This document shows, piece by piece, positions 1 through 31,817 of a DNA stretch of 31,917 nucleotides. How positions within the stretch are numbered: position 1 is the first letter of the stretch; each line of letters opens with the position of its first letter. Made by a program: the position numbers and the translations under genes. Source of the stretch: a virus; IMG/VR virus record IMGVR_UViG_3300020430_000057, positions 1-31,917 of that record; one strand, 5' to 3'. The notes under the pieces are model-generated. The model was not told the DNA's origin. It saw only the letters and a list, made by a program, of their open reading frames with translations, and did no database searches.

Positions 1-2766
1 ATCTGTGCAACTAAGAATAATGTCCGCCAGTCTTACATCCGAACCAGGAATGAATCCATGAGCATCACTTGTGGTAATAGTTGCTATGCCCGTGGATGGC
101 GTATATACAAATCCATTAATAGTCCTGGGGTCCTGCTCAATCCTTACTACAATATTATCCTGACCTACATCGGCATTTGATGTAACCACACCAACATATT
201 TTTCAACACTCTTACCATTAGCAATAATACCAAATGTTCCAAAACTACTATTACTATTTGTTAGATCTACCTGACCACCGGCGTGACATTGAATTGAAGA
301 ATCACAACAGATGGTGAACACGGAAACCAACTGTGCATAACCCTCATTAGTAACAGCAATTCCAACACCACCCTGATTATATTGGGTAAAGGCATCCACA
401 TTCATTGATTTGGTCTTAGGTGCTAATCTACCATCAACCCTCAGACCAACACCTGAGGTCGTATCACTCGTGCAGTTTTGGATGTATGGTCCTTTCCACT
501 TACCACCACCAACGTTGGAAGCACCATTTGGGGGGAAAGCAACAGCAGCGGCTGGATGAACGTGACCAGAGAAGGTCATATTTGATATTTTACAAGCCTT
601 ATTAACATGGAACAGATCCTGATTGGCAAAATTTGGAAGAACTTTTACAGTTCTTAAATCATCACCAACAATAGCACTGAATGCTGGTAGTTCAATGGGA
701 TTATTCTCCACATAGTTACCAGACATGACCTTGATAACAGAACCAGTATTAGCAACACCCACTGCCCCAGCAATGGTCAGTTTGGCATTATCAATGGATG
801 TTCCATTATTAGCATCATCACCATCCTTGGCAACATAGAAAACATTAGGAGCAGAGTTGATACCAGTGGCACCAGCATCAAGTGTGACATTCTCACCCAG
901 GATGATTGTGGAGTTTGTAACAGTAACAAGACCAACACTGACTGTATTGTTGTCACCATCAATCACAACAGATGCTGAACCAACAGTTAGGATGCCAAGT
1001 ATTCTGGCATCACCATCAACCAACAATGCTGTATTACCAGAACCAATATGAACTGTTCCAACCCCAGTGTTAAAGGTTGATATACCAGTTACATTGATAC
1101 CACCTGATAATACATCAACACCTGATCTGGCAGTAACAATACCAATAGAGTCTATATTTTTGACATCCTCATAAGTTGCGATTCCAGCAACACTTAAGTT
1201 TCCTGACAGTACAAGATTTACTCCAGTGGTATTCTCTGATAGTTCATCAGCAGGACCACCAACCGCAGTGCTAGCAATACCTACCCACTTAGCACCATCA
1301 TAAATTAGAAGTTTGTTTGTTCCTGTTGTTTGATCAAAGGTTACATCATCAAGATCCTTAATGAATCCTGCTCCACCACCACCCATGGTGGAAAGTTGGG
1401 TCTGAACCCTGTTTATAAACAACCTGTAGTGGTTAGATAAGTCCTCAAGAGTGGCAAACTTTTGATCCAATGGTGTTAATGGATCTAGTCTCCCACCTGA
1501 CCTTTCTTTTGTGTTGGGAGGTTCATTTAATAGACCCTCCATCAGTTTTTCTGCCTTTTTACCAGTAGTCAGATTTGTTTCTGACAGTGTTTTTTGCTGT
1601 TTTTTGATGACAACGGCAATTTTGTGGAGTTCAGATACAAGACTCTTGATATCAGTTTTAACAGATTTTACATCTGACTGTAAATCATCAATTTGCTCAT
1701 CATAATACTTAACCTCAGGTATTGAGTTCACCTTTTCCTGAATATCTTCCTTTAATTCTTCAAAATATGATAAGATTACTTTATCTGTCTTCACACTATC
1801 ATCAGTAAACTTCTTGATTTGCTTTTCAAGTGTTTGTTTGATCTTATTTTGTTCACCAAGTATTGCTTTTTTTAACTTTCTATCATCATCCTTAAATTCG
1901 TGCTTGTGATCATAGATCCTAAGGGTGATTTCTTTCAGTTCTTTGTAAATATTATCCTTCGAGTCTGAATAATTTTTCTTAAAGTTGTCTAAATCAACTT
2001 TTTGCTCAAAATCTTTGATTTCAATGTTCTCATTAAGTTCAGAAACCCTTAAATCTATCTTTTCTTTGATAATATCAAGGTGTCCCTGTACCTTTTTGAA
2101 GTCATCATCAATAATTCCAAAGGTTTTACCAATCCAGGAGAAATCTGGAACCTCATTTACCTTCTGAACCCAGTCAGGGAAGGTTGGAATGCTCTCATTG
2201 ACCTGTTCAATCCTTGATTTAAGGGCATCAAGGTCATTCTCATAGTATTTTACCTCAGGTAGGGACTCAATTTCTTCCTTAATTCTTGATATTTTACCAT
2301 AAATGAGATCAATATCACCCTCATAGTACCTAACTTCAGGAACTTCGGTGATTTTTTGCTCAATATCAGTTAATTTCGCTTCAAATTCATCATTTTTTGA
2401 TTTTAAATCATAGATTTTATCACTTTTAAGGTCATATATTGAGAAATTTTCTTGAATTTCTGCTATTTTTTCACTTATCTGACCAATCTCTTCATCATAT
2501 GATTTAATTTCAGGTATTTCTGGTATTTCTTTTCTTACATCATTAACAAGACGCACCAATTCCTGCCACTCTGGTGCCTTGACAACATCAATAATCTCAG
2601 CAAATGAGTTACCATTCGCATCTTCTATTGTTTCTTCCTCTATGTGGGTCTTATAATCCTCTACTGACGGTAATTCTTTCTCTTCCTCAATGAAGTCTTT
2701 ATAAGAGGGCAATTCACCATCTTCTAGATAATCATTAATTGACGGCAGGTCCTCTTTATTAGACAT
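1..2766 (-). CDS. Large fibre-like virion structural protein, 3' end outside window
   Basis: This reading frame is open for 922 codons from ATG at 2766 to the window edge, so the C-terminus is missing. The N-terminus reads MSNKEDLPSINDYLEDGELP. Residues about 60-455 are charged, helical and coiled-coil-like, with four copies of a PEVKYY(D/E)xxIDxL motif. A glycine run (MGGGGAGF, near residue 460) separates this from a beta-rich part. That part has GNLSVAGIATYEDV and GGINVTGISTF-type linkers and then a parallel beta-helix-like stretch beginning FYVAKDGDDANNG near residue 640. The visible end carries an HGFIPGSDV module. Proteins of this build are known as virion structural or fibre-like proteins in marine T4-like phages; a tail-fibre or whisker role is inference. 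The start is the first ATG after the gp16 stop, is in frame with gp16, and lies downstream of a late promoter box. No strong ribosome binding site is visible. Confidence 0.85.
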   Translation of the reverse strand, partial: MSNKEDLPSINDYLEDGELPSYKDFIEEEKELPSVEDYKTHIEEETIEDANGNSFAEIIDVVKAPEWQELVRLVNDVRKEIPEIPEIKSYDEEIGQISEKIAEIQENFSIYDLKSDKIYDLKSKNDEFEAKLTDIEQKITEVPEVRYYEGDIDLIYGKISRIKEEIESLPEVKYYENDLDALKSRIEQVNESIPTFPDWVQKVNEVPDFSWIGKTFGIIDDDFKKVQGHLDIIKEKIDLRVSELNENIEIKDFEQKVDLDNFKKNYSDSKDNIYKELKEITLRIYDHKHEFKDDDRKLKKAILGEQNKIKQTLEKQIKKFTDDSVKTDKVILSYFEELKEDIQEKVNSIPEVKYYDEQIDDLQSDVKSVKTDIKSLVSELHKIAVVIKKQQKTLSETNLTTGKKAEKLMEGLLNEPPNTKERSGGRLDPLTPLDQKFATLEDLSNHYRLFINRVQTQLSTMGGGGAGFIKDLDDVTFDQTTGTNKLLIYDGAKWVGIASTAVGGPADELSENTTGVNLVLSGNLSVAGIATYEDVKNIDSIGIVTARSGVDVLSGGINVTGISTFNTGVGTVHIGSGNTALLVDGDARILGILTVGSASVVIDGDNNTVSVGLVTVTNSTIILGENVTLDAGATGINSAPNVFYVAKDGDDANNGTSIDNAKLTIAGAVGVANTGSVIKVMSGNYVENNPIELPAFSAIVGDDLRTVKVLPNFANQDLFHVNKACKISNMTFSGHVHPAAAVAFPPNGASNVGGGKWKGPYIQNCTSDTTSGVGLRVDGRLAPKTKSMNVDAFTQYNQGGVGIAVTNEGYAQLVSVFTICCDSSIQCHAGGQVDLTNSNSSFGTFGIIANGKSVEKYVGVVTSNADVGQDNIVVRIEQDPRTINGFVYTPSTGIATITTSDAHGFIPGSDVRLADIILSCTD

Positions 2767-16276: not shown

Positions 16277-19200
16277 TTAGAGGTAGTTCTTAAATTTCAA
16301 TGATTGCGTTCTGTTAACCAAACCAGAGGTTGATATTCCAGTCACACCATCATCACCATAGAAATCAAAACTCTTGGGATCTGGTCTCTCTGCAAATTCA
16401 ATAACACCCCAACTGTAGTTACCTAATGATGGCTCTCTCTGAGGTGTATCATCTATACCCGCATGATAATCATCAACATTACATACAATCCTTTTGATTG
16501 TTGTCGTGATACCAACACTCTCCTCATTGAAGACCGTCCTCATCTCTACAACTGCTAATGCAACCTCATAAACAGCATCAAGGAATGTGGTTGCTGTACC
16601 AACAGTGGAGGCAAATGTGCTCCCAAGTGATATATTTGTGTTACTTATCACAACACGATCACCAACATCAAGAGTGCTTACTGTTACAGCTGTTCCAACA
16701 AGTGAAAGATCTCTCATTGGAGATTCAGTTGGAATATATGTCTCAAAATAGATTTGCTTCTGTGATCCATCAGTGGTGGTTCCAATGCCGGTTACAACAC
16801 CGAAGTCTCCTTCGTATGATGTAACATTGATTGTCTCTGTTATGATTCTAGGTTCAGAGATGAGTACGAGGGGTTCTGTGCTATAATTAGTGCCACCGTC
16901 ATCAATGGTAACAGAGGTCACAATATCACCTGTTAGAGCGGCAGTGGCGGTTGCCTGAGTGCCTGTTTCAATACCAATAGTAACGGTTGGTATAAAGTCA
17001 TAACCTTTACCAGGATTTGGAATGTTTATTGCCGTGATTGTACCAGCAGTGCTAACAGTTGTTTCCGCAATAGCACCCTCAAACTCATTCTGTGATGTGA
17101 GTGTTATTCTGTTCTGGAAGGTTCTAAATGATGTTTCATTATTAGCGTCATACAAGGGTCTCACAGAATCAACATATACCTGAGTGGATGCAGTTCCCAC
17201 TGATGATGTGATATAGGATGTTGGGAAGATATTGGGCTCATATTTAATCCTATCCTTACCCACAAACTGACCGTTAATCTTTTTATCAACAGTTTGTCTA
17301 CACCAGGTAACTGGTCTTGTTGTGGTCTTATCAAAGGCAAGACCAGGACCTTCATAAACATTTGTAAGAAGAGCATCCACAGTAGTGATGCCTGCGACAA
17401 CCCTCTTATTCTGTTGAAGTATATCTGTTTGTCCTACTTCCGGGTTTGCATTCAATTGAACAGTATCACCAGTTTTAACTGTTTCAAGAACATCCCTAAA
17501 CACGACATCAGAATCACCACCACCCTTGTAGAATATGATTCTAGAAGAATCACCAGCGGGAACTCCCGATCTAGGACCTTTAGGTGCCTCATTAAATGTA
17601 ATCTGACTTCCTCCCTCAAATGTGTAAGATTCTCCAGGAACTTGAAGAATATCATTGATAAAGACAAGAAGTGTCTGGTCAACCTCAATGTTAGAATCCC
17701 TTGCTGCTACAATTGAAATTGGATTACCATTAAGAAGTAGTGGGAATACCCTATCCAAACCGTTAAAGTACATATCAATTCTATCAAGCACCTCAAATTC
17801 GCCGGGTGAGAAAGCATTGAACGAATCACTATAAACATCTTGAATAGTGATTTGGAATTCATCAAATGATAATGTGGGATCAAGAGGAATGCCAGTGGTT
17901 CCACCAGTGGGGACAGTCAAAATTTCCTGATTCTTGAACGCATATCCAGTGTGTTGAATCTCAAATTCAATGATACTTGAACCCTGACCAACCTTAATAT
18001 CAATGGTCGCACTCGTTCCGATACCAGTATTAGAGGAAGTGGAATATATCAGTGGAATATTATCATAGTTAAGTGGCTCTTCTATAATGACAACAGGAGG
18101 ATTGGATTGATCGAATCCACTACCAGGATTTGTTATGGTGACACTATCTACATTTCCATTAACTATGACTGCCTCACCAATATGAGTGTCAATAGGTACA
18201 ACACCATCATAAGTTTGAACACCCACAGTATAAGCAGTAACAACACCAGCCCTGTAACCAGAACCACTGTTTCCAATGCTGATGGATTGAATAGCACCGG
18301 AGCCTGAAACAACAGCAGTTCCACCAGCACCAATTAATGGTTGATAACCAAATCCTGCTGATGAACCAACTGATACAATCAATCCACCAATAGGTAGATT
18401 GCCCTGATTAGGATCATATCCAGTGGCAGTTCCAAGACCGGGATTAAACTGAGCAGTGGTTACACCAGCACTCTCAAGGTTAATATATTCTCCAACTTCA
18501 CCAACCTGAATACCCTGTTGTGACTGATAGATATTATTCAGCAAATAGATTGTGTTGGATGTGATGCCAGTTACATCATTACCACCCGTTTTCATCACAA
18601 ACTCACTAGTAATACCAGTAAACTGATCAGTAATATCATCAAATACAAAGTTCTTGCTATAGGTTTCCTCTGTGCTATCCTCTACACCCCTCTTGGTGAA
18701 CACCCTTCCACTAAATCTGGAATTTGTGGTGATACCAGTGAAGTCCCTTGCATCAGGTGGATTGGTTGTAGATGATACAGGAATTTTTCCATATGGGGCA
18801 CTGACAAAGTTCAATGTATTATCAGTAATTGTGTAGTTACCGGTAAACTTAGTAACTGCTGCACCTGCGGAATGGGTAGCAATAAGGGAACCAAGGATTG
18901 GTCTCTCCACAAACACTGTGGTTGCAGTTCCCACAACAAAGGATGTGACCCTCATAAACTCATCATCTATCTTGATTATATCATTTGATGCTATAGTATT
19001 AATTCCACTAGTGATGAACCGAGTATCAAAGACAATATCTTGGGAAAGTGTCGCATTGATATTAGTAGGGGTAATGGGTGCCTGAATCATATTGTCAATC
19101 GTAATCAGTGCTTTGGTATTCTGATTAATTGCAGTAATATAATGTGAGGTTCCAGAACCGACAGCATCAAACTCAATTTTTGTAGGAATGATCGACTGAG

Positions 19201-22200
19201 CAGCAGCAGGACTGGTGGCAAAACCAATGGCCTGATCACTTATCTTGATGGCAAACAAATCAGTTGGAAGTTGATTTACTACACCAACACTACCACCAAA
19301 ATCAGTTGGTTTAATACCGATTCTTGATGAAAGTCCAAGCACCTCATACTTGACTGCCTCACCAGTCTGGAAGAAGTGATTTGGTGATATGACAACACTG
19401 GATAATGTATTGACCCCAGTAACACCATCAAACTGTCTCTCAAAGATTTGATCACCATTATGTGTGAGATTAAAACTCTTCTTAATGTTAGTAAGTGTTC
19501 CTTGATAACTTCCAGAATATGTCCTAAAGAATCCATCATTATAGTCAATTTGATTTAAATCAACATCTGCAAGAGGTTCCCTTAGATTGACAAAGAAGGT
19601 TTTTACCTCAACAGCAATACCAGCATTTGGGGTGTAGACAACATGCACATCATTACCTGTGGTGGTCACACCAACTGTTCCCAGACCAACACTAGTTGCT
19701 ACGTTTCCATATTCAACTAAGTTTTGGACTGGCCTGGCCGTAGAGTTTAATACATTCAGTTCAAACATTTCATGATTATTATTTGCTGTATCTTCTACAC
19801 AAATAGCCATATATGATGCAGAATACGCTTCAGCGGTTGTTGTTTCATAACTGGAAATAATATGCTCGGTTGGTGAACCAGAGGATGGAATAGATTTATA
19901 ACTACTTCCAACCCTTGCGGTGGTCATTGATGTAAACCCAGTTGTGCTGGTGCCCCTTACGTGAGAAACAACCTGACTATATGATGTTGCTGCTATTCCA
20001 GGGTTTGGATGGAATATCAAATTAACATCAGAACCACTAATCTCTCCACTATATGTTCCAATACCTCCACTGAAACTTAATCCAGAATTTTCATCAATAT
20101 TATTGTATTCAACGATAAACACATCAGTGTCATCGTGAATAATATTAAGCTCAGCGAAGTGGAAATCATCACCAGATACCAAAAGATTCAAAATCTTATT
20201 TGATCTGAAACTTGTGCCAACAGAGACAATGGTTGTGTCTGTCCCTGTTGGTACATTAACCTCCTGAGAACTAAACTCAACAATGTCGCCAAAAGATGAT
20301 CCTGCCGCACCAACTGCCTCTGGTTCAAATGCAAAGCTGAAGGATGAAACGCTGTAGTTGTTTAAGGTAAATTTGATTGGATGGAATTCAAAATTCCATT
20401 CTTGAGAATCAATACCAACATCAACATCACCCAGATCAAGAACCGTAAATAGTTTACCATACTGGGTCAGATATGCTAAATCATCATCAACTATTGTGGT
20501 TCCAACTAACAACATTCTCTCATCAGTAAATGTTGTATCCTTTACAAAGAATAACTGTTTAGCAAATTTAACAGAAGTTGAAAAATCAGCGACATTAGAA
20601 AATGCTTCTGGACGGGCATTGCTATTGAATGAATCACTTACATCATCAATTTTGATTGCCCTATTACCCTGAGATTCAAAGAAGTCAGTCAGGATTACAT
20701 TTTCAAAAAATACTTTATCAGATAAAGATTTTCCATTTACCTGGAATATATTTTCTTGAGCATTATCGAAGTCATAATAGCAGTGAATATCACCCGATCC
20801 CACACAATCAACAGTAAATGATATTTGTGTGTCCTCAACATCTCTTACAAATGTAGAGGGTGATTCACTGACAACCTGTAGATCAGAAAACTTTCTAAAT
20901 CCAGCAGTATGATTCAGAGCACCAACAGTTTTATCCCATACATTGAGTGGTACTGGTGATTTAAGTGAATAGGAAAATCTTTGATAATATTCATTATCAG
21001 GAATCTTCTGTAATTCATCATTTAAGAATCCGGTGTTTCTTTCCCATCCATAGTTTATCGTGGTTCCGGCACCTGCTTTAATATCACCCTTGAAATCAAA
21101 TCTTTTAATAACAATTCCTTTGGTTTTAGATGAACTACCGGTGATAATATCCCCAACAAGAAGATCAACCTGAGACTTGATTTTTAAAATATTGGTGCTT
21201 TGATTAAACTTATCAATGACACCAACATTTGGACCCCAGGTTACTGTCTCATCTGTGAGGAATTTATTCTTCCTCAACTCAGAAGTATAAATGGGAAGAT
21301 GTTCCTCAGGAATAACCTTTGAAGAGTCAAATGATAATATGTTTCCAGGAACATCATTTTCTCCTAGTTTATCCTTCAATGTATATTCGACATACGCACC
21401 AGATCCACCAGCATTAGTTTTAACACCAACCACACTAAACAAATTATGTCTATATTGATCGGAGTTGTAACCTTTGCCGGTTGTTCCAATACCAATGTTG
21501 ATATTCTCAACATAAACTTTTCCACCAATATAAAATGGATACTCATCATCACTATTAAACTGGTTGGTTAAGTCTAGTTTTACGGTAGTCCCATTTCCAT
21601 CCAGAGTGATTGCACCGATATAGTAACCATTTGAGTTATTAACTGGAATGATTCTTGGTGGTGTATTAAAGAATCCGGTTGAGTTTGTGATGATTTTAAC
21701 CTCGGGATCACCTAACTCATAATCAAGAACACAATCAACAATATCATCAGTAAAACCATCCCTCACAACCAAGGAAGGTGCTGTAAGATAGTCAATACCA
21801 GATGAGGTAATACCAATCCTACTGAATGAGGAAAGTGCATCAATTTCAACAATCTCAGGAAGATTGGCAGTCGGTTTAAGGGTTTGATCAGTCGGGTAGT
21901 TCCATCCAATATTATTGGATTTGAACTTTTGATTGGTAATTCTGCCAATACTGGTTGACTCAGCAAAAAGTATTGCTCCTGCACCAGTATCCGTTTTTAT
22001 ATTGCTGATGCCTGGAAGTTGAGTATATCCGTAGTTGTTGTCAATCAGATCAATCTTCTTAATATCACCAAAGGCAGTTTTTGATGACGTTTGATAGTTT
22101 GGTATGGATGTGGTCTGATCATATGAAACTATCTCAGAGAATGCTCTAATATTAAAATCAAATGTTGTAGAGCCAATCCCCACAATCTTATGTCTGCCAT

Positions 22201-25200
22201 CAAGTTTTGATACTGACTTGAATATGGTATTATGTGAGATCACCTCAGTATCAATAACAAGTTTCTTCTCATCAAGTATGAATGACTCATTTTCAAGATT
22301 AAACTTGTAATACAGTGCTGGAGGAGTATCCTTCACTTTTATTCTAAGTGCTCCGTCTATTCCAACCACACCTGATGTCTCAACATCAAAATCAGAATCT
22401 TCTTCAGTGTTGAAATATTGATTCAGATAAAGGGGATCAGTAAAAATATCCATCTTAAATGCTGGATATCTAATTGAGTTTGATACAAATGACAGTGACT
22501 CATCAGAAAGATCAAAGAGAAGATTAGTGGTAGCATTTACGACAGGATTAATCTTGGAGATAGTACCAATACCAGCAGATGTAATATTGACAAAGTTTGG
22601 AGATACTTTATCAAGTTCAACCCTGTCCTCAACAAGTTTAATCGAAGTCGAGGTATCAAGATAGACATAATACATTTTCTCATTTACCAAACCACCTGAT
22701 GGAGCGGGTGATTGATAGATGATTTTATCACCAGTTCTAAATCTATTTGTGGATACTCCAATAGCATTGGTGGTCGTATTTACAGCGGATGCGGCAAATT
22801 CAAATGGATCAAATACGATCCTTCTATTAAAATTATTATACTTAACAGTGATTGTTTCTTCATTAGTTGGATTGAGTTGAAGATCAATAATGTCATCAAC
22901 AAATAGACCGTGGGTTCCAGCTGTGGAGACAACAACCTTAGTCCTCTCAGCACTTCCTGTAACTACATTTTCAAAATCAGTTTTCAAACTATGATACACA
23001 CCAGTTCCAGTAGATGTAAAATAAAATAGACCAATTATTTCATTTTCAATACCAAAATAACCTGATGTTGTAACACCGATCTTAGTTGATGAAAGACCAA
23101 TAAAGTTCTCACTGATTGGGGCAACAAACAGGGTTGAGTAGAAATCAAGATCCCTCTTAGGTTCATTCGATTCACCATTCCATATCTCTATGGATGTTCC
23201 ACCATTCTTATTATAAGTAACAGTTTCATTGATTCTAAATCCATGAGCAGGGAGATAAAGTTGTTGTTCGGGTGCAAAGATACTAGCAATGCCAGCGCCA
23301 GGATTACTGAACGTAAGTGTCTTACCAGCACCAGTTATTGCTTCACTACCAATTCCTAATGCCTCGGCAGGATCAAAGTAAAATTCAGTATTCTTTCTTA
23401 GAAGTTTTGTTGTCTTAAGTGTTCCAACGTTAATTGAGAATGACTTTGGATCTTGGAACAGGGGAACGTTACCAGTGTGAGCAATACCAGTTGTTCCATC
23501 CTGTTCTCTAAGAACTCTTACCCTATTATTAAGAGGATCACTGTTTAGAACCTTGACTCTTTCAGATGAAATGGTAATGATATCATTGGGTCTCATGAAT
23601 GGATACTGAAAAGCACCACCAACACTAAAATATGTAACTATACCAGTGTTTGCTGCTGTATCGACATCATCAAGGAGAATGTAAGAACCAGTGTTGATAC
23701 CAATCTGATAGAATCCATCAAGACCAGCAAAGTAATCAGATAGACCATCAATCCTAAGTTCAGTCCCATCAATCAATGAATGGGGCTGAGTCATGAATCC
23801 AACAAACTTATTTTCAACCCCGACATTCACAAATTCAATATCTGTAAACAGGGTTGTGGAAATATCCACATTATTAACCGGTTTACCACCAACTTTAGAG
23901 ACAGCAGCCCTGGCAGACCTACCATAGGTATCACCAGAGAACAGAATCTTGTCAGACACCTTATAGTTGCTTCCACCAGTTAGAATGCCAACATTGTCCA
24001 CACTACCCTGAGATGTCCCGGTGACCTCAATAATTTGCTCCCTTTCTTTATTGGAGTTGAAAATGTAATCATATCCACCAAATAACGAGTTAATCTTGTA
24101 TGCTGTTGTTATCCTTCTCCAACCATTTTCTACCAAATCATAACTAACATGATTTGATAATAGTTTGAAGTTGAAATCATTCTGCTTATGTTCAAAAGAA
24201 TCACCAATCAGATATGGGAATAATGGTTTTTTAATACCCTTGAATGGACCACTACTTTCGGTTAGTTCTGAAACGGTGGCAAAGTAAACAAATTTTCCAT
24301 TTGGATATTCTGGTGTCACACAGAATCTACCATTATTTTTGTTAAGATCTCCAATATCTGTAAAAACATAGTCCTCAACAAAGAATCCAAGAGGATACAG
24401 ACTTAGTGGTGGTCTATTGGGGGTAACTTTTGCCTCGTATCCACTCTTCATCCTCCTTACAGTGCCACCGGATTGGGTATCATATCCATAAGGACCGTAG
24501 ATTGGTGATCCATCGTATGCCCACCCAATAATTGGTGAGTGAAACTTATTATTAACTTCTAAATTGTTAACAAGTTTCAGATCGGGATGATTATATTGTG
24601 GTTCGCCATTGGATTTTAATCCATAGACTGCCGCCCTAAGATTTCTAGGAGCATATAGATGCGAAAGTTGTGTTGAGTTGTTTAAAGAACCGACTGTGAT
24701 GATACAATCATCACTTGTGAGATTCTTGAAGTTTTGTTCAAATTTATTGATAGTCCAGTTATTAATATTCGCAGATACTGATCCATCTATACCTGCCGCA
24801 TTTACAGTAATAAATGAATCACTCCTATAACCCACACCCCCATTAACAACGATGACAGATGTAATGACACCATTTGTCAAAACAGGAGTCAACTTACAGT
24901 ACAGCCCCCCTGTGACATCAAGTGTGGGTGGTGAGTTGTAACCACTACCACCCCTATTGACCACAACCTCTTTAATAGCACCATCAGCAACAATGGGTGT
25001 CAGTTGAGCACCACTTCCACTATCAAGAGTTGTGCTGGGCAATCTATTGAAGTTAAAAATCTCAGATGAACCATAACCAACACCAGATGTGGTCACATCA
25101 GCGTTGGTGATTTTTCCCCTGAATATTGGTTGAACAGAACAAATAATATCCTGCCCAAAACTGGTATTAAGACCAACCGCACCCTCAATACTTACAGTAA

Positions 25201-28200
25201 TTGGTTTATAGTTGAAACATCCATCACCCTCACTAGTGAGATCAACGCATATTGAGTTATCAAGATTATATCTTGTACCAAGTGATCCGGTGCTCTTCTC
25301 AAAAAGTTTAAATCTATCATCGTCAAGTTTACCAACCAGATATTCGGTATTGGTGCTTAATCCTCCGATATCAGTTGTTTTTTGGAAATAGCAAATAATC
25401 TCACCAGTTTCATATCCGTGGTTCTTAATCGTGATGATATCAAGTGCTGTGCTTACCCCAACAGCGGCAACAGTCTTTTCCCGATTTTTGTATCCAGCAC
25501 CAGGATTTGATACATTAATGGTGCTTACAATTTTCTTCCTTTCAACTGTTGAAAATGTTTGGGTGCCATTACCCAGACCAAGGAGTTGTACCGTGTTTAT
25601 TCCAGCAACAGCATCATCAAAACTTGGGAAGAGTCTGATCCTCCTGCCATCAATGACCTTAGAGAAATATGTCTGATTGGTGGTAAGACCCACGATTGGG
25701 TTTGGATTAGAATCATAGGTAACATGCTCAATATCCCTAAGATTGTGGAATGTTGTAAAACCGATGAAATCATCATCTAAATCCACACCACCTATCGTGG
25801 TGGTATAAGCAATCCCTGCTAGGAATGGGATAGAGTGTGAAACCTCTATCATATTGACATGTGCCTCAGCAGGAGTTGTTGGACTTCCTCCGCTGATTTT
25901 TACAATGGGTGTTTCAGTGTAATCAAATCCATTGTTTATGATTCTAAGTTCCTGAAGACCACCCTCAACTGAGATAGTTCCTGTTGCCCCAGTCCCAAAA
26001 TCGTCAGTGATATTTAAAACTGGTGGATTGATTACATCATAATCCTTTCCATCACTACTAACATCAAAAGATTCAATGCCACCATAGAAAATAACATCGT
26101 TTGATTTATAGTTCTCAATCTCTACGCCATTTATGAGTATGCCTGTGGAACCTGGTTTTGTTGTAAATGTTCCTGCTTCCCTAATCGGCTCGTCAATCTC
26201 CCTGTATATCTTTTGACCCAACACGGGTTTTTTATAGAATGGATAATAGGTAAACTTATTATCAGTGACTGTTCCTATGGGAACAATATAGTTTCTATTA
26301 AGCAGATTTGACTTACTCTCCGCAAGTCTAATACTGAAGGCATCAACCCTTTGAACAAAAAACACACCCTCTGGTAGATTGGTAAATCTGCTTCGTGTGG
26401 TAGAACTTATTGTACCATCATCAACTTGAATTGTTGTGGTGATATCATTATGATTATAATATACGGCATCACCAGTATATAATCCATGATCAGCACTTGT
26501 TGTGAGTGTGATTATGTCGAAGTTTGCCGCACCGGAAAATGTAAAAGTTTTGTTATCACACCTAATCTCATTAGCATATCTTGGGATGCTATTACATGCG
26601 ATGAGATTCTTCTCCCCCTTAGCATATACATTTAGTATATTTGCATTAAAATCATTGACACTGGTAAGTTTATTTGAATCGCCTTTCAAAAGTTGATTTT
26701 CCACCGAGAACTCATTTGATAGGGTGGCTACGGGAATGACAGTTACAACCTTAACGTTCAACACCGTATCTGAATCTATCGAGGTTATCTCTCCCTCAGT
26801 TACTCTTGATAGATGTTTGTCGGTGATGTTAATCTTGTATCCTACCCTATAATCATGTGCCTCAAAAAATGAGAGTTGGTAGATATTATTTCCAGGATTT
26901 ATCAGTGTGATTGATTTTACATCCAGTTTCGACTTTACATTGTAGAACCAATCTGACTTGGTATTATCCGATATACCAATGGTCTTAAGACTTATCCTAT
27001 CACCCTTCTCAATACCAAAGTTACTATCAACATATTCAATCTCCTTTAGGGTGGAGACTATTCTAAATCTAACCTGATTCCCAGTTCCCACACCCACATT
27101 TACGAATGAAAAATCATCCTTTCTCACATCAGTCGTTGAATTGAAATTGGATGTGGTTGTGGTTACTCCAAGAAACTGAGTGAGGTTCTTATCAGTGTAT
27201 GAAAGGATATTTTCTTCTCCATTCGTATCAACTAAGGATAGTGTTCCTGAGGAGGGGAAGTCAATGGTGGAGTCCACATCCAGAATAGTTGAACCAATAC
27301 TCACATCATTTAATAGTTTTGTTTTTGAGTTAGGTTCAAACTTACCAAAGATTGTTCCATCTACATCAATGTCCCTCTGGTAACCAGAATCAATGGATAT
27401 CTGATAGAAGTTTCCATCAACATTGAGTTTTTCAACCTTTGTGACAGTTCCCCTGGAACCTGTTGACTTCTGATATACGGTATGATTCTTAATCAGTAAT
27501 GGGTCACCAACATACTCCTCAATGACATAATCCTGACTAACAAGATAGTTAGCATCAGATGGTCTAATGAGGAAGTTATCTGGTTTGATTATCTCTACAT
27601 CTTCACCATAGATTGCCTTGAACAGGATCTTGAAAGAGTCATCAGTTCCTTTTGATTTGTAAAAACTATCTGCTGCCTTTACAAAATTCTTTTGATTCAG
27701 ATCGGTGGAAAGGGATCTTCTCTCAAATCCAGGTGTAATGAGTGTTTTTAACTTGTTAAAAAACTCCTGTAAGAACAGGACACTAAGATTTTTTACGGTT
27801 GCTCCAGACTTATGAGCGGCTGGAAGGGTTGATTGGAATGTTAGTTTATCAGGTATGATATTGTCGAGATACTGGGTTACACCACTAAATCCCCTTACAC
27901 AGTCTTCAAAAGTTGTTGTTGTCTTAGATCCATACTTGATAATCTCATTGTCAATCAATATGAGACCATTCTCATCTGGGAAATCATATGTAAAATTAGT
28001 AGTGCCAGAAAGGGTTATCGTGGTATCAAGGATTCCTACATCAGCACCCAACTGGGTCTCTAATCTAATATTAGCAAGTTCATCAACCTTGACATACTGA
28101 TCAAGATTTTGAATCAGATCTAGGGGACCGCCACCATTTTCCTGTGAAGTATAATATTCCTCTAAAAAATCAACCAGGAGTGGAAAGTCATCCCTCACAT

Positions 28201-28255
28201 ATGCAGGGATTTGGGATGCAATGACATCCTGAATTTTAACTCTATCTACCGCCAT
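16277..28255 (-). CDS. Giant multidomain baseplate/virion structural protein at the gp7 position
   Basis: This single frame encodes 3992 residues, against 1032 for T4 gp7, the wedge initiator encoded at the same place between gp6 and gp8. The start reads MAVDRVKIQDVIASQIPAYV, and residues about 190-235 hold a conserved block (FVKAADSFYKSKGTDDSFKI, then IYGEDVEIIKPDNFLIRPSD). The rest is a chain of beta modules. At least seven copies of an HGxxTGDxVxY...FxL unit and about ten GxGY units are visible. Several IDDE...VER...H units and a YHYH-type domain (residues about 1230-1335) are also present. The C-terminus has GNYSWGVIEFAERPDPKSFD. No stop or frameshift interrupts it. I infer a wedge role from gene order; clear sequence kinship with T4 gp7 is not something I can show by eye. 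It starts six bases after the gp6 stop. Confidence 0.87.
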   Translation of the reverse strand: MAVDRVKIQDVIASQIPAYVRDDFPLLVDFLEEYYTSQENGGGPLDLIQNLDQYVKVDELANIRLETQLGADVGILDTTITLSGTTNFTYDFPDENGLILIDNEIIKYGSKTTTTFEDCVRGFSGVTQYLDNIIPDKLTFQSTLPAAHKSGATVKNLSVLFLQEFFNKLKTLITPGFERRSLSTDLNQKNFVKAADSFYKSKGTDDSFKILFKAIYGEDVEIIKPDNFLIRPSDANYLVSQDYVIEEYVGDPLLIKNHTVYQKSTGSRGTVTKVEKLNVDGNFYQISIDSGYQRDIDVDGTIFGKFEPNSKTKLLNDVSIGSTILDVDSTIDFPSSGTLSLVDTNGEENILSYTDKNLTQFLGVTTTTSNFNSTTDVRKDDFSFVNVGVGTGNQVRFRIVSTLKEIEYVDSNFGIEKGDRISLKTIGISDNTKSDWFYNVKSKLDVKSITLINPGNNIYQLSFFEAHDYRVGYKINITDKHLSRVTEGEITSIDSDTVLNVKVVTVIPVATLSNEFSVENQLLKGDSNKLTSVNDFNANILNVYAKGEKNLIACNSIPRYANEIRCDNKTFTFSGAANFDIITLTTSADHGLYTGDAVYYNHNDITTTIQVDDGTISSTTRSRFTNLPEGVFFVQRVDAFSIRLAESKSNLLNRNYIVPIGTVTDNKFTYYPFYKKPVLGQKIYREIDEPIREAGTFTTKPGSTGILINGVEIENYKSNDVIFYGGIESFDVSSDGKDYDVINPPVLNITDDFGTGATGTISVEGGLQELRIINNGFDYTETPIVKISGGSPTTPAEAHVNMIEVSHSIPFLAGIAYTTTIGGVDLDDDFIGFTTFHNLRDIEHVTYDSNPNPIVGLTTNQTYFSKVIDGRRIRLFPSFDDAVAGINTVQLLGLGNGTQTFSTVERKKIVSTINVSNPGAGYKNREKTVAAVGVSTALDIITIKNHGYETGEIICYFQKTTDIGGLSTNTEYLVGKLDDDRFKLFEKSTGSLGTRYNLDNSICVDLTSEGDGCFNYKPITVSIEGAVGLNTSFGQDIICSVQPIFRGKITNADVTTSGVGYGSSEIFNFNRLPSTTLDSGSGAQLTPIVADGAIKEVVVNRGGSGYNSPPTLDVTGGLYCKLTPVLTNGVITSVIVVNGGVGYRSDSFITVNAAGIDGSVSANINNWTINKFEQNFKNLTSDDCIITVGSLNNSTQLSHLYAPRNLRAAVYGLKSNGEPQYNHPDLKLVNNLEVNNKFHSPIIGWAYDGSPIYGPYGYDTQSGGTVRRMKSGYEAKVTPNRPPLSLYPLGFFVEDYVFTDIGDLNKNNGRFCVTPEYPNGKFVYFATVSELTESSGPFKGIKKPLFPYLIGDSFEHKQNDFNFKLLSNHVSYDLVENGWRRITTAYKINSLFGGYDYIFNSNKEREQIIEVTGTSQGSVDNVGILTGGSNYKVSDKILFSGDTYGRSARAAVSKVGGKPVNNVDISTTLFTDIEFVNVGVENKFVGFMTQPHSLIDGTELRIDGLSDYFAGLDGFYQIGINTGSYILLDDVDTAANTGIVTYFSVGGAFQYPFMRPNDIITISSERVKVLNSDPLNNRVRVLREQDGTTGIAHTGNVPLFQDPKSFSINVGTLKTTKLLRKNTEFYFDPAEALGIGSEAITGAGKTLTFSNPGAGIASIFAPEQQLYLPAHGFRINETVTYNKNGGTSIEIWNGESNEPKRDLDFYSTLFVAPISENFIGLSSTKIGVTTSGYFGIENEIIGLFYFTSTGTGVYHSLKTDFENVVTGSAERTKVVVSTAGTHGLFVDDIIDLQLNPTNEETITVKYNNFNRRIVFDPFEFAASAVNTTTNAIGVSTNRFRTGDKIIYQSPAPSGGLVNEKMYYVYLDTSTSIKLVEDRVELDKVSPNFVNITSAGIGTISKINPVVNATTNLLFDLSDESLSFVSNSIRYPAFKMDIFTDPLYLNQYFNTEEDSDFDVETSGVVGIDGALRIKVKDTPPALYYKFNLENESFILDEKKLVIDTEVISHNTIFKSVSKLDGRHKIVGIGSTTFDFNIRAFSEIVSYDQTTSIPNYQTSSKTAFGDIKKIDLIDNNYGYTQLPGISNIKTDTGAGAILFAESTSIGRITNQKFKSNNIGWNYPTDQTLKPTANLPEIVEIDALSSFSRIGITSSGIDYLTAPSLVVRDGFTDDIVDCVLDYELGDPEVKIITNSTGFFNTPPRIIPVNNSNGYYIGAITLDGNGTTVKLDLTNQFNSDDEYPFYIGGKVYVENINIGIGTTGKGYNSDQYRHNLFSVVGVKTNAGGSGAYVEYTLKDKLGENDVPGNILSFDSSKVIPEEHLPIYTSELRKNKFLTDETVTWGPNVGVIDKFNQSTNILKIKSQVDLLVGDIITGSSSKTKGIVIKRFDFKGDIKAGAGTTINYGWERNTGFLNDELQKIPDNEYYQRFSYSLKSPVPLNVWDKTVGALNHTAGFRKFSDLQVVSESPSTFVRDVEDTQISFTVDCVGSGDIHCYYDFDNAQENIFQVNGKSLSDKVFFENVILTDFFESQGNRAIKIDDVSDSFNSNARPEAFSNVADFSTSVKFAKQLFFVKDTTFTDERMLLVGTTIVDDDLAYLTQYGKLFTVLDLGDVDVGIDSQEWNFEFHPIKFTLNNYSVSSFSFAFEPEAVGAAGSSFGDIVEFSSQEVNVPTGTDTTIVSVGTSFRSNKILNLLVSGDDFHFAELNIIHDDTDVFIVEYNNIDENSGLSFSGGIGTYSGEISGSDVNLIFHPNPGIAATSYSQVVSHVRGTSTTGFTSMTTARVGSSYKSIPSSGSPTEHIISSYETTTAEAYSASYMAICVEDTANNNHEMFELNVLNSTARPVQNLVEYGNVATSVGLGTVGVTTTGNDVHVVYTPNAGIAVEVKTFFVNLREPLADVDLNQIDYNDGFFRTYSGSYQGTLTNIKKSFNLTHNGDQIFERQFDGVTGVNTLSSVVISPNHFFQTGEAVKYEVLGLSSRIGIKPTDFGGSVGVVNQLPTDLFAIKISDQAIGFATSPAAAQSIIPTKIEFDAVGSGTSHYITAINQNTKALITIDNMIQAPITPTNINATLSQDIVFDTRFITSGINTIASNDIIKIDDEFMRVTSFVVGTATTVFVERPILGSLIATHSAGAAVTKFTGNYTITDNTLNFVSAPYGKIPVSSTTNPPDARDFTGITTNSRFSGRVFTKRGVEDSTEETYSKNFVFDDITDQFTGITSEFVMKTGGNDVTGITSNTIYLLNNIYQSQQGIQVGEVGEYINLESAGVTTAQFNPGLGTATGYDPNQGNLPIGGLIVSVGSSAGFGYQPLIGAGGTAVVSGSGAIQSISIGNSGSGYRAGVVTAYTVGVQTYDGVVPIDTHIGEAVIVNGNVDSVTITNPGSGFDQSNPPVVIIEEPLNYDNIPLIYSTSSNTGIGTSATIDIKVGQGSSIIEFEIQHTGYAFKNQEILTVPTGGTTGIPLDPTLSFDEFQITIQDVYSDSFNAFSPGEFEVLDRIDMYFNGLDRVFPLLLNGNPISIVAARDSNIEVDQTLLVFINDILQVPGESYTFEGGSQITFNEAPKGPRSGVPAGDSSRIIFYKGGGDSDVVFRDVLETVKTGDTVQLNANPEVGQTDILQQNKRVVAGITTVDALLTNVYEGPGLAFDKTTTRPVTWCRQTVDKKINGQFVGKDRIKYEPNIFPTSYITSSVGTASTQVYVDSVRPLYDANNETSFRTFQNRITLTSQNEFEGAIAETTVSTAGTITAINIPNPGKGYDFIPTVTIGIETGTQATATAALTGDIVTSVTIDDGGTNYSTEPLVLISEPRIITETINVTSYEGDFGVVTGIGTTTDGSQKQIYFETYIPTESPMRDLSLVGTAVTVSTLDVGDRVVISNTNISLGSTFASTVGTATTFLDAVYEVALAVVEMRTVFNEESVGITTTIKRIVCNVDDYHAGIDDTPQREPSLGNYSWGVIEFAERPDPKSFDFYGDDGVTGISTSGLVNRTQSLKFKNYL
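24266..24545 (-). other. YHYH-type domain inside the giant structural protein
   Basis: Residues about 1237-1330 of the giant protein contain SPIIGWAYDGSPIYGPYGYD and, further on, NNGRFCVTPEYPNGKFVYFA. This is the pattern of the YHYH domain family, in which the second block usually ends in a YHYH-like motif. Here the motif reads FVYF, so both histidines are absent. The domain's role in phage tails is unknown. Confidence 0.65.
24780..25090 (-). repeat. Cluster of three GxGY coding modules in the giant protein
   Basis: Three consecutive units encode SGVGYGSSEIFNF, GGSGYNSPPTLDV and GGVGYRSDSFITV. They are of the same type as the four in gp14 and the pairs near 16850-17040 and 18090-18300. Each has a glycine-rich turn, a tyrosine, often a proline, then a beta strand, with an SGA- or G-rich linker. 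Confidence 0.7.
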
Positions 28256-30874: not shown

Positions 30875-31594
30875 TTATTGAATCCTCAATCTACCATCCT
30901 GGGAGTGATAGGTATCGATGGGATCCTCGTCCAATTGTTCAACAACCTCCCTCTCCTGGGTCGTCTTCCAGAAATACGAATCCTCATCACCCAGTCCCAT
31001 CCTGTCATGACCGTTCTCAACCTGATAATACTCCGTTGATACCTTGAAGTCGGGCATCTTTGGATTATCCGGCGTCAGACTGTTATCAAAAATCCTGGTC
31101 CTGTTATTCGGATACAGGCAATACTGACCATTCCTCAACTCAATCAGGTTATGTGACTTGTGCTCGGATGGTATCTCGGAGGTGCTGTAATCAATAATAT
31201 CCGGGTCCTGGTGGTAGTTGTCTATCGTACACACATAGGTGCCCTTCTGGATGCCGTGGTCCCTCGTATAGACCTCATAATCCATGGACCCGATGAACTG
31301 CTTCTGGATGGCAACGATCCCATAGTCCATACAGTTCCAGAACTGGAGGTTAAACAGGTTCATATCGGGATCGGGTGTCCTTGGTTCCGATACGAATGCG
31401 CTGATGGGTAACTTATCATACATTGCCGCATATTCTGGAAGGTAGGTCTCAAAATAGAAGGCCCTTCCCGGTATGCTCTTTGCCGATACCCACCAACCCT
31501 TTACAAACTCCCCCCAACCCGATGTATGGTCGGTGAGGTATTCCTTTCTTACATAGACCTCCACATTAGGGAGGTTACAGATCAAACATGCCAT
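30875..31594 (-). CDS. Uncharacterised protein upstream of gp25
   Basis: This 239-residue soluble protein begins MACLICNLPNVEVYVRKEYL. It is rich in aromatic and acidic residues (SGWGEFVKGWWVSAKSIPGR, FWNCMDYGIVAIQKQFIGSM, then KVSTEYYQVENG), with a CLIC cysteine pair at the N-terminus and no membrane segment. The frame stays open upstream to an ATG at 31777, but that longer version would cross the terminator and a complete basic gene, and its added residues look random. The ATG at 31594 is therefore preferred. I recall similar proteins in marine T4-like cyanophages without a known function. A weak late box lies 19 bases upstream. Proximity to gp25 hints at a late role, but this is inference. 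Confidence 0.8.
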   Translation of the reverse strand: MACLICNLPNVEVYVRKEYLTDHTSGWGEFVKGWWVSAKSIPGRAFYFETYLPEYAAMYDKLPISAFVSEPRTPDPDMNLFNLQFWNCMDYGIVAIQKQFIGSMDYEVYTRDHGIQKGTYVCTIDNYHQDPDIIDYSTSEIPSEHKSHNLIELRNGQYCLYPNNRTRIFDNSLTPDNPKMPDFKVSTEYYQVENGHDRMGLGDEDSYFWKTTQEREVVEQLDEDPIDTYHSQDGRLRIQ

Positions 31595-31613
31595 TGAATA
31601 GAGATTTCCCGCT

Positions 31614-31621
31614 GATTTATC
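31614..31621 (-). promoter_or_regulatory. Possible late promoter box (GATAAATC)
   Basis: GATAAATC on the minus strand matches TATAAATA at 6 of 8 bases. It lies just after an intrinsic terminator and 19 bases before the chosen start of the 239-residue gene, the same spacing as before gp8 and gp15. Position supports it more than the match does. Confidence 0.45.
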
Positions 31622-31639
31622 TATACATAAAAATACATA

Positions 31640-31666
31640 CAAAAAAAGAGGGGTTTGTGACCCCTC
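31640..31666 (-). terminator. Intrinsic terminator after the 48-residue basic gene
   Basis: On the minus strand GAGGGGT, a five-base loop and ACCCCTC form a perfect 7-bp stem, followed by seven T. Arms are 31660-31666 and 31648-31654; the T run is 31641-31647. It begins four bases after the stop of the small basic gene, so it should end that transcript and separate it from the gp25 block. Confidence 0.9.
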
Positions 31667-31670
31667 CCGA

Positions 31671-31817
31671 TTATCGACCCTGACCCCTGTATCTCTTCTT
31701 CGCGGGTCCCCTGCTGGATGCGGAATATTTTGTATGCTTCCCTTGACCCTGACGTGTCTTCTTGGGTGTTGCCTCAATGAACACCGTACCCAACATTGAC
31801 TTCTTAATCTTTGCCAT
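31671..31817 (-). CDS. 48-residue highly basic protein
   Basis: The frame encodes 48 residues beginning MAKIKKSMLGTVFIEATPKK and ending KKRYRGQGR. About 14 residues are Lys or Arg and only one is acidic, with several Gly and Gln and no hydrophobic segment. A strong ribosome binding site (GAGGAG) lies eight bases before the ATG, and an intrinsic terminator follows the stop almost at once, so the gene is well supported despite its size. I recall small proteins of this type in marine T4-like phages but no known function. Nucleic-acid binding would fit the charge but is a guess. Confidence 0.82.
   Translation of the reverse strand: MAKIKKSMLGTVFIEATPKKTRQGQGKHTKYSASSRGPAKKRYRGQGR

Follow-up and report, generated by a model that had tools for sequence, protein, structure and literature searches.

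Six copies of a probable beta-barrel unit at fixed places in the gp7-like baseplate wedge protein of T4-like cyanophages

Results

We analyzed a 31,917-base stretch of viral DNA, positions 1 to 31,917 of IMG/VR record IMGVR_UViG_3300020430_000057 (hereafter the window), in which the giant open reading frame (ORF), P0001, encodes a protein of 3992 amino acids (aa). An initial annotation, made from the letters alone, had noted in this gene a repeated module of the form HGxxTGDxVxY...FxL, had likened it to the first catalytic cysteine half-domain (FCCH) of E1 enzymes, and had taken it to point to modular growth of the virion surface. We found that the protein, a gp7 baseplate wedge protein of a T4-like cyanophage, carries six units of one predicted beta-barrel family at six places that recur in all of the named cyanophages surveyed, and we consider it probable that these units are rigid structural barrels. 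The gene and its units are located as follows.

16277..28255, minus strand: giant gene, 3992 aa, gp7-like baseplate wedge protein bearing the units (ORF, phrog_2885 and annotated orthologues)
26291..26527, minus strand: unit 1, residues 577-655, with a long variable loop (37.8 bits; hhalign 92.7-98.7% against the other five)
25598..25786, minus strand: unit 2, residues 824-886 (51.2 bits; hhalign 91.0-98.3%; aligns with UBA1/UBA6 FCCH)
25271..25456, minus strand: unit 3, residues 934-995 (60.0 bits; hhalign 96.8-99.3%)
23060..23281, minus strand: unit 4, residues 1659-1732, not listed in the initial annotation (45.9 bits; hhalign 91.0-98.0%)
22601..22783, minus strand: unit 5, residues 1825-1885 (46.1 bits; hhalign 96.4-99.3%)
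19187..19414, minus strand: unit 6, residues 2948-3023 (38.3 bits; hhalign 95.9-98.0%)

In a PHROGs scan, phrog_2885 ('baseplate wedge subunit') matched residues 4-3351 of the giant protein with 3154 bits, and the genes next to it matched families of baseplate wedge, tail sheath stabilizer and head-tail connector proteins. In T4-like cyanophages, most orthologues bear the label gp7, baseplate wedge subunit or baseplate wedge initiator; the gene order in annotated cyanophages is gp25-gp6-gp7-gp8. The only Pfam domain above its cut-off in the 3992 residues was YHYH; PF23786 was found with E 1.3e-4, under its cut-off. A profile of the first 560 residues, built from orthologues, matched residues 678-812 of T4 gp7 (hhalign 90.8% over 128 columns, E 1.2e-6), while T4 gp6 and gp10, run as controls against the same profile, gave 0.5% or less. 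The matching part of the gene is the following.

27389..27811, minus strand: stretch homologous to part of T4 gp7 (residues 678-812), residues ~149-289 of the giant protein, far end approximate

According to one study, cyanomyophages and pelagimyophages lack T4 Gp7 and seem to have VrlC in its stead (PMC7029224). The N-terminal match speaks against a complete absence of T4 Gp7 from such phages.

Relatedness of the six units

All five copies named in the initial annotation lie in frame in the 3992-aa ORF, with their motifs slightly shifted (for example, 26456-26491 rather than 26461-26510). The exact motif sites are DHGLYTGDAVYY at 26456-26491, HNLRDIEHVTY at 25715-25747, NHGYETGEIICYF at 25385-25423, NRFRTGDKIIYQ at 22712-22747 and NHFFQTGEAVKYE at 19343-19381, and unit 4 has the motif HGFRINETVTY. 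An IxL/FxL-type strand follows the motif at a distance of 35-52 residues in all six units, in agreement with the 'about 40' first proposed; it varies to IKI or IGF in unit 6 and to IGL in unit 4. The conserved letters of the unit are H, G, Y, GL, Y.V and L. A strict version of the motif pattern gave 6 overlapping starts, amounting to 4 distinct sites, against a mean of 0.168 and a maximum of 3 in 500 shuffles.

Iterated profiles of 63 positions, seeded with the six places of the initial annotation, settled on six units in the giant protein with scores of 37.8-60.0 bits, where reversed sequences reached at most 8.2 bits in the last iteration and 5.7 bits in the scan that gave these scores. Five of these are copies named in the initial annotation and the sixth is the unlisted unit 4. 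The looser copy placed at 23671-23790 turned out to be marginal: it scored 48.0 bits with the seed profile and 8.5 in the next round, after which it was lost. Phage S-SRM01 has an above-threshold copy at residue 1474, close to this position. In contig L030, a unit match of 14.2 bits lies between its units 4 and 5. Two stretches of the giant protein are kept as weaker candidates.

23642..23821, minus strand: marginal seventh copy (the 'looser copy'), residues 1479-1538 (86.6% against unit 2 and 8.9-52.7% against units 1 and 3-6)
22784..22963, minus strand: possible divergent copy with HGLFVDDII, residues 1765-1824, weak (0.3-22.1% against the six units)

The scoring profiles include the units themselves, and the independent test was therefore a comparison of one profile per place, built from orthologues only. 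The initial annotation had named a self dot plot without off-diagonal lines as its refutation, and the comparison does not bear this out: all 15 unit pairs matched (hhalign 91.0-99.3%, E 1.1e-6 to 1e-20), most of the alignments spanning most of the unit length. Only control windows that had at least 8 orthologues entered this comparison, the number of those excluded not being recorded; when the units were compared with the 28 that were kept, 2 of 168 comparisons exceeded 50% (82.4 and 57.4). Among control-control pairs 28 of 378 did so, because gp7 carries another repeat family. It is extremely improbable that the motif is only a common turn-strand pattern of beta proteins, arisen repeatedly without shared ancestry. 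Such a view could draw on the shortness of the pattern, on the other repeats in gp7 and on the control pairs above 50%, but it does not fit the agreement of separately built profiles at every pair, nor the finding that a single unit from cyanophage S-SM2 retrieves the tail fiber protein of Sinorhizobium phage phiLM21 at E 6e-8 and 51.9% identity. Judged from the sequences, the repeat is a real family of related units.

Places, age and selection

We surveyed the units across orthologues, omitting matches that were under threshold or covered less than 55% of the model length, and found units in 14 of 15 proteins. In the window and in all 12 named cyanophages, each of the six places holds one unit; S-SRM01 has an additional one. 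The six units of phage B23 are split over two ORFs, and the second gp7-like ORF of S-SSM7 has none at threshold. Complete uncultured ORFs, counted only when they were at least 3300 aa long (n = 8), all had six (7 ORFs) or seven (1 ORF) units, one of the eight (contig L013) being from the virus of the window or nearly so. Distances between unit starts vary little from phage to phage, at 223-259, 109-127, 693-792 (the extra copy of S-SRM01 excluded) and 153-174 residues in order; the exception is the distance between units 5 and 6, 758-1194 residues, a range of about 400.

In B23, gp7 itself is spread over two ORFs, and the two gp7-like ORFs of S-SSM7 flank a gene labeled wedge-tail fibre connector. 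The 19.4-kb IMG/VR contig L013 has a gp7 identical to that of the window and thus belongs to the same or nearly the same virus.

In a tree of 79 units, which was drawn from 63 columns and leaves many forks open, the label of place (with the S-SRM01 extra as a seventh label) needed 7 changes, where the minimum is 6 and shuffled labels needed 51.9; the label of phage needed 71. Support for single places was mixed, with unit 2 forming one side of a branch and unit 1 needing 4 changes. Because the units keep the same six places and group by place, not by phage, the six-unit array was in place before the sampled phages diverged, and this argues against ongoing modular growth. The initial annotation's proposal, under which copies would have been recently added and lost on the virion surface, has in its favor that these phages carry the module in at least two of their virion genes, the single extra copies in S-SRM01 and contig L030, and the variable length between units 5 and 6. 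The constancy of the six places and the grouping in the tree largely refute it for gp7, and we regard it as very unlikely.

In 41 pairs of close relatives, the ratio of nonsynonymous to synonymous differences (pN/pS) was 0.14-0.35 in the six units and 0.16-0.33 in six other regions of gp7, figures that are rough because pS is high (0.38-0.55). Modal conservation was 0.57 in units 1-5 and 0.60 elsewhere in gp7. The units are thus under purifying selection, and nothing in these values suggests an arms race at them.

Predicted fold and distant relatives

We obtained AlphaFold models of residues 560-1400 (77 alignment rows, predicted local distance difference test score, pLDDT, 90.0) and of residues 1440-1900 (61 rows, pLDDT 87.0), after a redundancy filter had reduced the cropped relatives from 92 to 76 and from 76 to 60, respectively. 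When the first model was compared with the PDB, ranks 1-30 of the 50 matches listed were E1 enzymes or fragments of them. Twenty-nine of these 30 aligned over approximately positions 246-346 of the model, that is, unit 2 and its flanking strands, with Z 7.0-8.6 and 2.0-2.6 Å; the rank 30 row spanned positions 208-347 (Z 6.9, 5.7 Å). Against the FCCH of UBA1 and UBA6, unit 2 gave Z up to 8.6, with a root-mean-square deviation (rmsd) of 2.0-2.1 Å over 76-77 residues.

25541..25843, minus strand: complete predicted barrel that includes unit 2, residues 805-905, model positions 246-346 (extent of the structural alignment, Z up to 8.6)

On the predicted fold, the likeness to FCCH is good, not overwhelming. 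We infer that the other five units share the fold of unit 2. Foldseek runs on the whole models were uninformative, with large rmsd across several domains.

Profile comparison provided a second line of evidence. A profile of 19 bacterial stretches over the E1_FCCH cut-off matched the profile of all gp7 units at 95.5% (E 1.6e-8), so that the profile-profile check proposed in the initial annotation came out in favor of a relationship both here and among the units. Taken place by place, the values ranged from 13.3 to 95.5%, units 4 and 6 being weak (38.2 and 13.3%), and the 28 control windows gave at most 13.1%. Membership by score was a different matter. The Pfam model E1_FCCH (PF16190, cut-off 29.5 bits) listed 2 of 79 units at E up to 10 (best 0.016), none of them over the cut-off; it had no match in the window and none over the cut-off in five phage genomes (best 15.5 bits). 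We did not use its sub-threshold lines in those five genomes as evidence, because T4 also gives one (12.4 bits). The early comparison with FCCH thus holds as a fold likeness of unit 2 and a remote homology, but not as membership in the Pfam family. Scans of the 79 units with Pfam, NCBIfam and PHROGs found no model that fits the unit as a domain. Because no unit reaches Pfam's E1_FCCH cut-off, the units look like a separate family, so far without a model, remotely related to E1_FCCH and to the endosialidase barrel. Our open-access literature searches on FCCH and phage yielded no paper that we recognized as dealing with phage FCCH domains, which does not imply that none is in print.

The endosialidase relationship raises another possibility, that the barrels are glycan-binding sites which would hold host surface sugars, so that the baseplate would grip the cyanobacterial envelope by many weak contacts. 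A search of solved structures with the unit profile found the phi92 endosialidase (4hiz, E 0.002), and the Pfam model End_beta_barrel (PF12195, cut-off 35 bits) listed 6 of 79 units at E up to 10 (best E 0.0029), with 0 of 5 phage genomes over the cut-off. Endosialidase rows for unit 2 had Z 5.5-6.6, values that the tool describes as frequent among models lacking a clear match. According to one report, K1F endosialidase binds polysialic acid at three sites, of which this barrel is one, and the barrel is also a hotspot for discriminating between hosts (PMC12632334); our unit also occurs in proteins labeled tail fibers. The conserved places and the purifying selection do not favor such a role, since the units change no faster than the rest of gp7, and their conserved letters look like fold-makers. 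By analogy with the endosialidases, then, glycan binding is the main rival to a structural role, possible but rather doubtful. Endosialidase rows of the second model (span 27-334, about 80 residues aligned) were set aside.

Occurrence outside gp7

The unit is not confined to gp7. In 10 of 12 cyanophage genomes it also matched an ORF other than gp7 (E 0.001 or better; length about 1640-2330 aa), two of these ORFs being labeled tail fiber protein (S-SM2) and long tail fiber protein distal subunit (S-SRM01); the corresponding ORF of P-SSM2 gave E 0.0128, and B23 gave none. More copies were present in a hypothetical protein of S-8S55 and in a shorter tail fiber protein of S-SRM01. With the S-SM2 unit as query, we retrieved 109 phage records at E 0.1 or better, including 3 Sinorhizobium, 2 Microbacterium and 1 actinomycete phage records, and one bacterial locus, in the gammaproteobacterium HIMB30. 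The HIMB30 genome contains seven unit matches (best 77.3 bits), four of them in one ORF. In a wider search, the unit was found at 1e-6 or better in 6 of 299 genomes of HIMB30's phylum, HIMB30 included, in ORFs of 418-10327 aa, and E1_FCCH in 11 of the same 299, with no overlap between the two sets. A bacterial unit profile was made from 17 of 20 loci. Pfam scans of six bacterial or phage ORF stretches (five with units, one a fiber ORF) returned a single weak End_beta_barrel line and no other Pfam family. The unit family is a mobile module elsewhere, in tail fibers and giant bacterial proteins, and a frozen set within gp7. A giant ORF of Actinomycetia phage DSL-LC01 (L148), with nine unit matches, is labeled 'ALK tyrosine kinase receptor'.

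A related copy had also been proposed in the fiber-like gene at the edge of the window. The idea of a module common to the giant gene and a fiber gene is borne out for the fiber gene of about 1640-2330 aa described above, but not for this one.

1..117, minus strand: region of the fiber motif HGFIPGSDVRL, truncated where the window ends (unit profile: -0.2 bits)

The motif, at 28-60 and not at 36-71, lies at residue 903 of P0002, which the window end truncates. Its relatives in P-SSM2 and in a single-cell virus have a different, YxxGG-type ending, and a profile of only three sequences gave 74% against the bacterial members of E1_FCCH and 12% against the gp7 unit. That the edge motif is the same module as the gp7 unit is therefore not shown by these comparisons.

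Neighboring domains and genes

Two further domains of gp7 lie among the units.

24269..24571, minus strand: YHYH domain, residues 1229-1329, lying between units 3 and 4 and lacking its HxH (PF14240, E 1.8e-22)
23447..23698, minus strand: barrel of a different kind, residues 1520-1603, adjoining the marginal copy and preceding unit 4 (Z 12.2, 1.6 Å over 79 residues to phage JBD30 baseplate 8rk3_b)

YHYH has been predicted to be a zinc-dependent hydrolase on the basis of conserved histidines and an aspartate (PMC7824862). Here the name-giving histidines are lost: the motif reads FVYFAT, and among 73 aligned rows with a letter at the position, histidine occurs at residue 1323 in none and at residue 1325 in 2, so that the gp7 version may be inactive. 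The barrel at 23447-23698 also matches the tail tip of phage chi (Z 9.8). The other repeat family of gp7, of a GG..Y...PP type, is present in gp7, gp8 and the head-closure protein (P0001, P0004 and P0009), all three of which are matched by phrog_460. At 30875-31777 of the window, P0007 matches phrog_3704 'ferredoxin'; an S-SM2 gene at a like place is labeled both purM and ferredoxin, and these labels look unreliable.

Discussion

We favor the reading that the units are one beta-barrel family, held at six fixed places in gp7, whose members act as rigid structural barrels. The six units lie along gp7 between other beta modules and the YHYH domain. As rigid bodies, they would set the spacing of an elongated wedge protein, and they could offer docking surfaces to neighboring wedge proteins or to fiber bases. 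Purifying selection and fixed spacing favor a structural role of this kind.

Several points weigh on the other side, in addition to the roughness of the pN/pS values. The highest Z of unit 2, 8.6, barely exceeds the level (about 8) which, according to the tool, models with no clear match often reach, and Foldseek by itself is weak, its best E1 row having E 0.22. A clear fold match was obtained for unit 2 only; units 1, 3, 4 and 5 were modeled but have no separate rows, and the models do not extend to unit 6. Our searches found no structure of this baseplate and identified no partner, and neither the listings of our literature search nor an excerpt of PMC3037559 describes an experiment on gp7 units. 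Finally, among relatives whose ligand is known the endosialidase barrel is the closest, and its ligand, sialic acid, points toward glycan binding and away from a purely structural role.

The T4-like cyanophages form one of the major virus groups of the ocean, and most of their giant baseplate gene lacks annotation. The unit makes gp7 and fiber genes of these phages accessible at the level of single domains, and it is a candidate family for domain libraries. The gp7 array itself is, on this evidence, old and frozen, not growing. Two separate lines, profiles and fold, tie these barrels of phage and bacterial surfaces to the FCCH of E1 enzymes, and the source of FCCH becomes testable. One speculative extension, which we think unlikely, is that the unit represents an undescribed prokaryotic sister family of E1 FCCH, residing on surfaces (phage wedge and fiber proteins, giant bacterial proteins), and that the FCCH insertion, which sets eukaryotic E1 apart from MoeB/ThiF, would be a surface barrel captured from this superfamily.

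Among known systems, T4 shares with the cyanophages about 130 N-terminal residues of gp7, homologous to T4 gp7 678-812, but it has no unit in gp6-gp12 or anywhere in its genome, as searched with the unit profile. The family phrog_2885 includes the whole giant protein as a member and is one model of a long protein; for the unit inside it, the scans of Pfam, NCBIfam and PHROGs showed no separate model. The tail fiber family phrog_38233 matches 21 of 79 units (best E 1.7e-9), although it describes a fiber protein and not a wedge protein. The barrel of the endosialidases K1F and phi92 (End_beta_barrel) is a phage tailspike barrel with a weak sequence match to the unit and Z 5.5-6.6 in the fold comparison. 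There, it is part of an enzyme and binds sialic acid, whereas gp7 has six copies in a wedge protein, below the Pfam cut-off and with no ligand known. E1_FCCH (PF16190), which comprises the half-domain of ubiquitin-activating enzymes and bacterial members, has in common with the unit the pattern HG..GD.V ... G(L/M) ... Y.V ... TF.L, but the profile alignment covers 45 columns and ends before the YxxGG end of most bacterial members. In E1 enzymes the FCCH is an insertion in an adenylating protein and, as stated in an excerpt of PMC12355090, contacts ubiquitin; in the cyanophages the carrier is a baseplate wedge protein, and the ubiquitin-contact role has no counterpart in gp7.

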